Shown in pieces: positions 13,786-24,277 of a DNA stretch of 64,000 nucleotides. Source of the DNA: Dehalococcoidia bacterium (GTDB lineage: Bacteria; Chloroflexota; Dehalococcoidia; DSTF01; JACRBR01); contig JBBDXD010000019.1 of NCBI GenBank assembly GCA_040902535.1, positions 194,773 through 258,772 on the forward strand, in the 5' to 3' direction. The position numbers and the translations under genes were made by a program. The notes under the pieces are model-generated. The model did no database searches and had not been told where the DNA came from. It saw only the letters and a program-made list of their open reading frames with translations. Within the stretch, counting starts at the first letter, position 1, and each line of letters opens with the position of its first letter.

Positions 13786-13905
13786 GCGTTCGACTCTAAC
13801 AGCAACGCGTCGCCAAGTCGAACACTTGTACGCGTCATAAGGTTCGCGCGTTGCGGCCGATGCTATCCGGGGGAGCTCCACCTGGGGGACTAGCACGGAG
13901 GAACA

Positions 13906-21476: not shown

Positions 21477-22595
21477 TTACCGCGCGAAGTCGCGGACCAG
21501 GCGCGCCGCCGCCTCGGCGACAAGCGCCGCTCCTGCGCGCATGGCGTCTTCGAGGCGCATCCCGCTCGGCGTCGATGCCATCACGGCGTCAAACATGAGC
21601 GAGGACGGATCATAGTCGCTGATCGTGCCCGCGACGGCGATCACCGGCTTCCCACACTCGCGCGCCACCGCGGCGACGCCGGCGGCGGCCTTGCCGTACG
21701 CGGTCTGGCTGTCGAGCCGGCCCTCTCCCGTGACGACGAGATCCGCCGCTTCGACACGCGCGCGCAACCCGATCGCATCAGCGACGATCGGGAAGCCGGG
21801 CTCGATCGTCGCACCGGTGCCGACGAGAAGACCGGCGCCGAGACCGCCCGCCGCGCCGCTGCCCTCGATCGCCTGGAGGTCGAGAGCGAAGTCACGTTGC
21901 ACGACCTCGGCGAAGCGTCGCAGGGCGGCGTCGAGCGTCGCGACCGCCTGCTGAGATGCGCCTTTCTGCGGCCCGAAGACGACGGCGGCGCCTTCGGGCC
22001 CGTAGAGCGGGTTGCGCACGTCGCTCGCAACGCGGATCGCCGCGCGGGCTACGCGCGCATCGATGGTTGTCAGATCGATGCGATCGAGATCCGCGAGCGC
22101 AGCGCCACCGCGATCGAGATCGGCGCCCGACGCATCGAGCAGGCGCGCGCCGAGCGCCTGCAGCGCACCGGCGCCCGCATCCACCGTCGCGCTGCCACCG
22201 ACGCCGACGATGATGTTGCCGCAACCGGCGTCCAGCGCGGCGACGATCAACTCGCCGACGCCGGACGTCGTCGCGGCAAGTGGATCGCGCTCGGCTTCCG
22301 CGAGCAGCACCAGTCCGGAGGCTGCAGCCATTTCGACGACGGCTGTAGCGTGCGGGAGCAGCGCCCACGTGGCTTCGATCGGGCGCATCAGCGGATCGTG
22401 CACGGTGATCGTACGGCGCTCACCGCCGCGGCCGGCGATCAGCGCGTCGACGAGGCCCGGGCCGCCGTCAGACACCGGCGCTTCGTCGACGGTCGCGCCG
22501 GCCATCGCCCGGCGCACGCCGGCGGCGATGGCGCTCGCGGCTTCGACCGCGGTGAGGCTTCCCTTGAATTCTTGCGGCGCGACGAGGATGTGCAT
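21477..22595 (-). CDS. glxK: Glycerate 2-kinase (GK-I family)
   Basis: A 372-residue enzyme of the glycerate kinase type 1 family, phosphorylating glycerate, usually to 2-phosphoglycerate. The start MHILVAPQEFKGSLTAVEAA is the family N-terminus, with DGGPGLVDAL near residue 45, TSGVGELIVAALDAG, NIIVGVGGSATVDAGAG and VTGEGRLDSQTAYGKA near residue 290. ATG 22595 is chosen because the conserved motif begins there. It stands alone on the minus strand, and the promoter of the divergent zinc-ribbon gene lies 68 bases away. No glyoxylate carboligase or tartronate reductase is next to it. Confidence 0.93.
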   Translation of the reverse strand: MHILVAPQEFKGSLTAVEAASAIAAGVRRAMAGATVDEAPVSDGGPGLVDALIAGRGGERRTITVHDPLMRPIEATWALLPHATAVVEMAAASGLVLLAEAERDPLAATTSGVGELIVAALDAGCGNIIVGVGGSATVDAGAGALQALGARLLDASGADLDRGGAALADLDRIDLTTIDARVARAAIRVASDVRNPLYGPEGAAVVFGPQKGASQQAVATLDAALRRFAEVVQRDFALDLQAIEGSGAAGGLGAGLLVGTGATIEPGFPIVADAIGLRARVEAADLVVTGEGRLDSQTAYGKAAAGVAAVARECGKPVIAVAGTISDYDPSSLMFDAVMASTPSGMRLEDAMRAGAALVAEAAARLVRDFAR

Positions 22596-22662: not shown

Positions 22663-22691
22663 TTGACATCGCACAGGCGTTCTATTATGAT
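22663..22691 (+). promoter_or_regulatory. Near-consensus sigma-70-type promoter TTGACA-17-TATGAT
   Basis: TTGACA at 22663-22668 and TATGAT at 22686-22691 are separated by exactly 17 bases. This is the best promoter match I found in the window. It drives the 43-residue zinc-ribbon protein and perhaps mtaB downstream. Confidence 0.85.
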
Positions 22692-22727
22692 CGCCAGAAC
22701 AGAACATTTGTACCAACGGAGACCGCC

Positions 22728-22859
22728 ATGACTCGCCGTATCCGTGTCCGAACGATCGTCCTGCCGCGTGCGCGGGACTGCCCTGACTGCGGCGGTCCCC
22801 TGGTGCATGCTGAGGGCTGCGTTACGTGTCCCGTGTGCGGGTTTAGCGCTTGCAGTTGA
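22728..22859 (+). CDS. 43-residue zinc-ribbon protein, NrdJ-tail-like
   Basis: A very short gene: ATG 22728 to TGA 22857-22859, preceded by CGGAG. After a basic stretch (MTRRIRVRTIVLPRARD) it has CPDCGGPLVHAEGC followed by TCPVCGFSAC, i.e. C-x2-C ... C-x2-C-x2-C plus a final Cys-Ser. This is the pattern of the C-terminal zinc-ribbon of vitamin B12-dependent ribonucleotide reductases and of small stand-alone relatives. A structural zinc is likely; the role is unknown. It has its own strong promoter. Co-transcription with mtaB is possible. Confidence 0.8.
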   Translation: MTRRIRVRTIVLPRARDCPDCGGPLVHAEGCVTCPVCGFSACS

Positions 22860-22884: not shown

Positions 22885-22893
22885 TGTTATGAT
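22885..22893 (+). promoter_or_regulatory. Extended -10 element TGTTATGAT upstream of or inside mtaB 5' end
   Basis: TGT followed by TATGAT is a full extended -10 match. It contains the two ATG codons that would give the longest mtaB reading frame. If it is used, transcription starts after them and translation must begin further down, after AGGGAGG at 22908-22914. Confidence 0.5.
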
Positions 22894-24277
22894 GCCTGCG
22901 AATCTGCAGGGAGGCGCCGGCATCAACCCGCACGCGACGCAGACACTGGCCCCGGTCGACCTCCCGCTAGTCGCAGACCGGCCCTCTCGCTATGTCGCTC
23001 CGCCTTCCACCAGCCCTCGCATCGGGCGGGTCGCCATCATCACGCTCGGCTGCAAGCTGAACCAGGCCGACTCCGAGTCGATCGCGCGCCAGTTCACGCA
23101 GCGCGGCGTCCAGGTCATCGATCGGCCTGCTATCGCCGACGCATACGTCATCAATACCTGCTCGGTCACCCACGTCGCCGACCGCAAGGCGCGGCGCATG
23201 GTGCGCCTCGCGCGGCGGCTGTCGCCAAACGCGCCCATCGTGCTGACCGGCTGTTACCTGCAGACGGCGCCCGCCGATATCGCGCGCGAACTCGGTGCGG
23301 ACATAGCGATCCACACACGCGACAAAGCGTCGATCGCCGACCGGATCGGCGTCGTCCGGCGTATGCGGGCCGTCGAGCAGCCGACCGCGTTGCGCACGCG
23401 CGCATTCGTGAAGGTGCAGGAAGGCTGCAACGACGTCTGCGCGTTCTGCATCGTGCCTAAGACGCGCGGGCGCGAAGTCAGCGAACCCATCGAGCGCGTC
23501 GTGCGCGAAGTGCAGGCGCGTGAACGGGAAGGCGTCCAGGAAGTAGTGCTCACGGGCACGCAACTCGGCGCATACGGCCGCGACGCCGGGACGGCGCCCG
23601 CCGATGTCATCGCGGCGGTGCTGGCCGAGACGTCGGTGCCGCGGATCCGGTTTTCTTCGCTGCAACCGCAGGACATCACGCCGGCGCTGCTGGGACTATG
23701 GGACGACCCGCGCCTCTGCCGCCACTTCCACCTGGCGCTGCAGAGCGGCTCCGACGCGACGCTGCGCCGCATGCGCCGGCGATACGACGTGGCGCAGTAT
23801 CGCGACGCCGCGCAGCGGATCCGCGCGCACACCGGTGACGGCGTGGCGATCACGACGGATGTGATCGTCGGGTTCCCGGGCGAGACGGACGTTGAGTTCG
23901 AGGAGAGCATCGCGTTCTGCCTTGAGATGGGATTCGCGCAGATGCACGTCTTCCCGTACTCGAAACGCTCGGGGACGGTCGCCGCGCGCCTGCCGGACCA
24001 GGTGCCCCACGATGTGAAACACGCACGCATGCAGCGCATGCTCGCCGTCGCGCCGGAGTCACGCCGGGCGTTCCTCGATCAGTTTGCGGGACGGGTGATG
24101 CCGGTGCTCTGGGAGCGCAGCCGCGGCGATGCCAATGGAGCGCCGGCGTGGGACGGGCTGACAGATAACTACATCCGCGTCACCGCTCGTTCGCACCGCG
24201 AGTTGCGTAACCAGCTCACCGTGGCGCGGCTCGTGACGGTGAACGCCGACGGCGGGTTCGAAGGGGAGGCGTTGTGA
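22889..24277 (+). CDS. mtaB: tRNA t6A37 methylthiotransferase MtaB
   Basis: A radical-SAM methylthiotransferase of the MiaB/RimO/MtaB group that converts t6A37 to ms2t6A37 in tRNA. The N-terminal UPF0004 domain shows TLGCKLNQADSE, INTCSVTHVADRKAR and LTGCYLQT with three cluster cysteines; the radical-SAM cluster is CNDVCAFCIVPKTRGRE; a TRAM-like region closes the protein. The N-terminus is uncertain. ATG 22889 or 22892 lie in a -10-like box without Shine-Dalgarno, while ATC 22922 stands seven bases after AGGGAGG. The stop overlaps the next start as GTGA. Confidence 0.94.
   Translation: MMPANLQGGAGINPHATQTLAPVDLPLVADRPSRYVAPPSTSPRIGRVAIITLGCKLNQADSESIARQFTQRGVQVIDRPAIADAYVINTCSVTHVADRKARRMVRLARRLSPNAPIVLTGCYLQTAPADIARELGADIAIHTRDKASIADRIGVVRRMRAVEQPTALRTRAFVKVQEGCNDVCAFCIVPKTRGREVSEPIERVVREVQAREREGVQEVVLTGTQLGAYGRDAGTAPADVIAAVLAETSVPRIRFSSLQPQDITPALLGLWDDPRLCRHFHLALQSGSDATLRRMRRRYDVAQYRDAAQRIRAHTGDGVAITTDVIVGFPGETDVEFEESIAFCLEMGFAQMHVFPYSKRSGTVAARLPDQVPHDVKHARMQRMLAVAPESRRAFLDQFAGRVMPVLWERSRGDANGAPAWDGLTDNYIRVTARSHRELRNQLTVARLVTVNADGGFEGEAL

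Follow-up and report, generated by a model that had tools for sequence, protein, structure and literature searches.

The Dehalococcoidia genome examined here (3.18 Mb in 28 contigs) appears to carry, as a gene of its own, a copy of the terminal cysteine ribbon of NrdJ, the B12-dependent class II ribonucleotide reductase, and this gene is very probably controlled by LexA. It lies at 22728 to 22859 of the window, by which we mean the whole 64,000-nucleotide stretch of contig C19 that was analysed, and judging from the relatives compared below, genes for stand-alone NrdJ-type ribbons, with an SOS-type operator that is conserved among them, occur across much of the class.

The open reading frame is on the forward strand, with its ATG at 22728 and a stop codon ending at 22859, and encodes 43 amino acids, which places the gene below the usual annotation size. 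A Shine-Dalgarno-like GGAG (22718 to 22721) precedes it on the same strand, as does a sigma-70-type promoter (22663 to 22691) made up of TTGACA (22663-22668), a 17-base spacer and TATGAT (22686-22691). This arrangement matches the consensus at 11 of 12 positions and occurs once between 22000 and 23500, where 50 shuffles gave 0.1 on average; the earlier note's description of a short frame with its own near-consensus promoter and Shine-Dalgarno sequence is thus confirmed, while its count of five cysteines was wrong, as the protein has six (residues 18, 21, 31, 34, 37 and 42; spacing 3,10,3,3,5). Codon comparison indicates selection at the protein level. Between L001 and L005 the protein is 91% identical and the DNA 77%, with 23 silent and 4 amino-acid-changing codons of 42, and between L001 and L006 there are 25 silent and 4 amino-acid-changing codons, L005 and L006 being the two nearest orthologues.

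The divergent neighbour, at 21477 to 22595 on the reverse strand, is a glycerate kinase gene (TIGR00045, E 4.1e-123), and mtaB (22889 to 24277, forward strand; TIGR01579, above its cut-off) follows 29 bases downstream and is possibly cotranscribed with the small gene. A divergent glycerate kinase gene was found just upstream at 20 of 40 testable orthologous loci, mtaB just downstream at 17 of 44, and both neighbours together at 11 of 46. We considered mtaB as the true LexA target and disfavour it, as the boxes described below remain at the small gene where mtaB was not found downstream (27 of 44 testable loci, a class that takes in short or diverged loci).

That the small protein is homologous to the NrdJ ribbon is, on the sequence comparisons, very probable. 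Its best NCBIfam match is PRK08665 (vitamin B12-dependent ribonucleotide reductase), of which positions 730-759 of 759 align with residues 14-43 at E 7.8e-9, the next match after this model standing at E 3.9e-5; the whole-protein cut-off of PRK08665 is 961 bits, which is out of reach for any fragment. The same model was matched by 20 of the 21 orthologues scanned (E <= 1e-3), and the resemblance to the C-terminal tail of the B12-dependent enzyme that had been proposed from the sequence is thereby borne out. The cysteine spacing is identical in the window protein and in the tail of the NrdJ encoded on contig C9 of the same genome, and a position-by-position comparison of 51 distinct stand-alone ribbons with 50 distinct NrdJ tails found E29, G30 and all six cysteine positions common to both. 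As the protein has its own 43-residue frame and is not fused to a catalytic chain, it is to be regarded as a homologue of the tail and not as an NrdJ. A Pfam scan of the small protein gave no match over cut-off, and a PDB sequence search with it gave no convincing relative. Its AlphaFold2 model is weak (pLDDT 71.9, pTM 0.43), and a Foldseek search with that model returned nothing significant, the best matches (E 0.15) being ribbons of RNA-polymerase factors, ribosomal proteins and PriA.

The biochemistry of the homologous domain provides a frame for what the small protein might do. As described in PMC5704485, the six cysteines of the Stackebrandtia NrdJ carry electrons to the active site, four of them being proposed zinc ligands and Cys-933/Cys-945 the proposed redox pair, and electron transfer between subunits occurs; in an AlphaFold study (PMC9669993) this finger lies beside an IscU-like domain. 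The small protein shares with this cysteine-rich domain (CRD; PMC5704485, PMC9669993) six cysteines in the same order, a near-identical spacing and the core EGC..C..CG[FY][ST]xC. It differs in that the small proteins are free, of 31 to about 70 residues, and correspond only to the last 28 or so residues of a 150-220-residue domain, in that the IscU-like part is missing, and in that the gene is preceded by a promoter of its own that bears LexA-type boxes. NrdJb of the split NrdJa+b of P. aeruginosa likewise has its CRD ribbon on a gene separate from that of the catalytic chain; NrdJb, however, has an IscU-like domain and completes a tail-less NrdJa, whereas the protein described here is 43 residues long in a genome where both NrdJ proteins have tails.

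The second line of evidence is the operator, which the earlier note did not mention. Dehalococcoides LexA, we presume, uses the Gram-positive type of box. The genome encodes LexA and RecA, and the promoters of both genes have boxes of the type GAAC-N4-GTTC, which the cited sections of PMC3323433 and PMC2248561 give as the LexA box of Gram-positive bacteria; the boxes at the small gene are of the same type, yet one half-site is often degenerate there (GNAC or GTAC). Box 1, CGCACAGGCGTTCT, lies at 22670 to 22683 between the -35 and -10 elements and scores 11.9 bits, and box 2, AGAACATTTGTACC, lies at 22701 to 22714 just after the -10, covers the expected transcription start and scores 15.6 bits, more than was ever obtained when the upstream region was shuffled 100 times; neither is assigned to a strand. 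A weaker third match (11.1 bits) falls at 22749, inside the coding sequence. The scoring matrix was built from 34 sites in the recA and lexA promoters of relatives and used no small-gene promoter; recA loci L081-L085 and the lexA locus L109, all of them partial, were set aside. The matrix is not blind, because its sites had to lie within one mismatch of GAAC-N4-GTTC, and that consensus was prompted in part by the small-gene promoters themselves.

The boxes are conserved well beyond the window. Frame length and three sequence words served to filter out NrdJ frames, which left 46 distinct orthologues; in 43 of these the score was higher than in at least 95 of 100 dinucleotide shuffles. Scores of at least 12 bits were found for 43 of 45 promoters of the small gene, as compared with 2 of the 113 regions upstream of other frames at the same loci. 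At a threshold of 10.5 bits, a box is present at 65 of 66 genes and two or more at 62; the sole gene without one (G316) has only 142 bases of its upstream region covered. Furthermore, 62 of the 66 orthologues have a TTGAC at a distance of 6-12 bases on the 5' side of a LexA-type box, and the plan of -35, box, -10, box is therefore conserved while neighbours and N-termini change. As is asked of a member of the LexA regulon, the small gene has the box in its promoter and sits in a genome with LexA and RecA, and we regard its control by LexA, predicted from these patterns, as very probable. SulA, YneA and SidA are other SOS-regulated small proteins, and those known act mostly on division or membranes. 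The present protein is like them in being small, apparently LexA-controlled and part of the response to DNA damage, a likeness of description with no claim of sequence likeness. The titles and abstract starts of the literature searched gave no description of a LexA-controlled NrdJ or small ribbon.

Other boxes were seen in passing. One of 12.5 bits lies at 13819-13832 of the window, about 35 bases before the ATG (13785) of recJ (TIGR00644, E 1.4e-137), which may belong to the SOS regulon as well, and two boxes 32 bases apart lie upstream of a frame of another kind on contig C1 of the same genome (G000 C1:58140-58183; L041, L042).

Homologues of the small protein, which the earlier note had proposed to seek, make up a conserved family of 66 genes. 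Orthologues among 60 relatives share 91-69% identity within the window's family and down to 45% beyond it. A class-wide search with an alignment of 21 members as query (393 genomes, E <= 1e-11) matched 119 genomes, 65 with a short stand-alone gene and the rest with a long nrdJ frame or a fragment thereof; these 65 genes and a diverged copy from an earlier search (G011) constitute the set of 66. In a phylum-wide search (201 genomes, E <= 1e-8) 34 genomes matched, and among the matches listed only the window's own was a short frame. Ten relatives were found on viral contigs, some NrdJ-like and several of them other short ribbons without EGC; stand-alone frames of 43-75 residues with CPxCG-type ends and other residues in place of EGC occur on the IMG/VR contigs L268, L270, L272, L274 and L275, and are perhaps other free NrdJ-like ribbons.

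The would-be redox cysteines are both kept in 61 of the 66 members, whereas the conservation of the four zinc cysteines is no test, these having been required by the search pattern. Both redox cysteines are gone in G011 and G050, which retain the zinc four, and the last one is gone in G012, G041 and G266; all five keep their LexA-type boxes. The suggestion that disrupted cysteines in close relatives would tell against the gene therefore has a divided outcome, none of the six members found in the window's family having lost a cysteine, while 5 of 66 overall lack one or both redox cysteines. In one of the five (L022, G012) a long unrelated tail has taken the place of the last cysteine and the C-terminus; this may be the result of a frameshift.

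The relation to NrdJ itself can be examined within the genome. The earlier note had raised the idea of a detached tail serving an NrdJ that lacks its own, and in this simple form the idea fails, since the genome-wide check found two NrdJ large subunits, one on C9 and one at C19:262731-264347, each ending in its own six-cysteine ribbon. The latter (L263:4569-7565) lies behind an NrdR-like gene about 4 kb past the window's end, and its product has the C-terminal sequence CANCGWIMMRSGTCYRCENCGSTSGCS; no box-like match upstream of it scores above 9.1 bits. The C9 nrdJ, in turn, has a LexA-type box, CGCACAGACGTTCT (13.8 bits), directly before a TATAAT, at about 2317-2345 on the reverse strand (G000, L004), and because the start codon follows the TATAAT so closely, its mRNA may be leaderless. 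In several relatives, two nrdJ genes lie close together on one strand. A whole-genome pattern, GNACRNNYGTTCTRNTA, was found only at the C9 nrdJ and the small gene and is given no weight, having been designed after both had been seen and with 0.8 chance hits estimated.

In a wider comparison, 32 genomes with the small gene and 19 without it were tested for an nrdJ box of at least 10.5 bits, which turned up in 15 and 2 of them respectively (Fisher one-sided 0.007, uncorrected for kinship), so that 17 of the 32 show none at the copy examined; in one of the two box-bearing genomes without the small gene (G029) the box seemingly falls within coding sequence. This comparison leaves out G002 (start outside the sequence covered) and G023, G024 and G043 (no NrdJ start found), and a first G006 locus that was too short was replaced by L351. 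The C9-type copy has the box in all six tested members of the window's family (G000, G001, G003, G004, G006, G007) and, with different letters, in five of the six tested members of family f5, as well as in G009, G011, G017 and G038, 11 of the 15 genomes thus falling in two families; the other nrdJ copy of the window's family, which in the window's genome stands behind the NrdR-like gene, reaches 10.5 bits in none of six. These distributions suggest that nrdJ and the free tail may have been drawn into one regulon more than once. A ribonucleotide reductase large subunit is encoded in 39 of the 40 tested genomes with the small gene, the exception (G016) being 77% complete.

With this in mind, we tentatively favour, at somewhat less than even chances, the reading that the small protein is a free version of NrdJ's redox ribbon, made upon SOS induction and acting on class II ribonucleotide reductase. 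In healthy cells LexA bound to the two promoter boxes would repress the small gene, and upon DNA damage its release would induce it. Cys 18, 21, 34 and 37 of the product would hold zinc, and Cys 31 and 42 would form a dithiol like the Cys-933/Cys-945 pair of the NrdJ tail; the free ribbon could then act on NrdJ in trans, either as an electron donor to the oxidised active site or through a change in oligomer state, and so adjust dNTP supply during repair. The steps that we infer are LexA binding and induction, the zinc and dithiol chemistry, the ribbon's contact with NrdJ and the sense, boost or brake, in which it acts. Action on NrdJ in either direction, as helper or inhibitor, we consider rather probable, and action as a helper taken singly just short of an even bet; the trans action is better motivated because LexA-type boxes stand at both the small gene and one nrdJ. 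For basic turnover the free ribbon would be unnecessary, since each NrdJ here already has a tail. The joint loss of both would-be redox cysteines in two lineages agrees with the published pair assignment, and because redox cysteines are lost in five members that keep LexA-type boxes, the dithiol is apparently not needed everywhere in the family; such variants speak against a purely redox role across it. According to Loderer et al. (PMC5704485), a truncated NrdJ combined with a separately expressed cysteine-rich domain gave no activity with TCEP, a result that counts against the proposal; that domain is 150-220 residues long, far above the small ribbon in size.

The loss of redox cysteines bears also on the opposite sign of action, in which the free ribbon would compete with the enzyme's own tail and lower dNTP production as a checkpoint. 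Ribbons devoid of the redox pair (G011, G050) could still compete, and homology and co-regulation serve this account as well as they do that of a helper, but the joint induction of nrdJ and its inhibitor makes little sense and both cysteines are kept in 61 of 66 members, and we hold inhibition to be unlikely. We think it similarly improbable that the SOS-regulated ribbon has nothing to do with NrdJ and acts, for instance, on RNA polymerase, ribosomes or DNA. Zinc ribbons are widespread, and the top structural matches were to ribbons of just such proteins, though none of these was significant and the model behind them is poor; the EGC and final-cysteine positions, moreover, are NrdJ-like and not generic.

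A further account concerns the N-terminus. The beta-clamp binding consensus is QL[SD]LF or QLxLxL. Segments resembling it (Q[LM]R[LMF]xL[FSY]-like, QLTF or QFSLF) occur in 16 of 66 members, mostly of families f114, f119 and f37 and with varying flanks, and are kept in G050 and G266 despite the loss there of one or both redox cysteines; ImuB has a known clamp-binding motif of similar shape, QLPLWG, in the cited part of PMC10421592. Such proteins could be SOS-induced fork adaptors in some lineages, the N-terminus binding the sliding clamp and the ribbon a second protein, with redox chemistry secondary or absent. Against this, the motif is absent in 50 of 66 members, including the window protein, which has VRTIVL at the aligned place, several members begin right at the ribbon (MKRHRCPDC), and common descent may explain why the 12 TQLR-type sequences of f114/f119 resemble one another; we judge the adaptor role doubtful. 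A bolder combination, in which the detached tail is a new kind of SOS effector linking ribonucleotide reductase to the damaged replication fork, seems to us very improbable. In the QLRLxLF lineages the protein would be tethered to the clamp by its N-terminus and would, through its ribbon, either dock into NrdJ oligomers or supply them with electrons, bringing dNTP production to the places where repair synthesis needs it, and in the window's lineage the fork link would have been lost or rewired and nrdJ itself put under LexA.

Returning to the free ribbon acting on NrdJ, the evidence suggests that damaged cells may use this small protein to adjust their supply of DNA building blocks. A candidate partner of the CRD-bearing NrdJ enzymes, whose natural reductant Loderer et al. 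did not find (PMC5704485), is a free ribbon that shares their dithiol; natural variants of the small protein, furthermore, separate zinc binding from the dithiol. If the proposal is true, it would link dNTP synthesis to the SOS response in a class of bacteria that is large and mostly uncultured.
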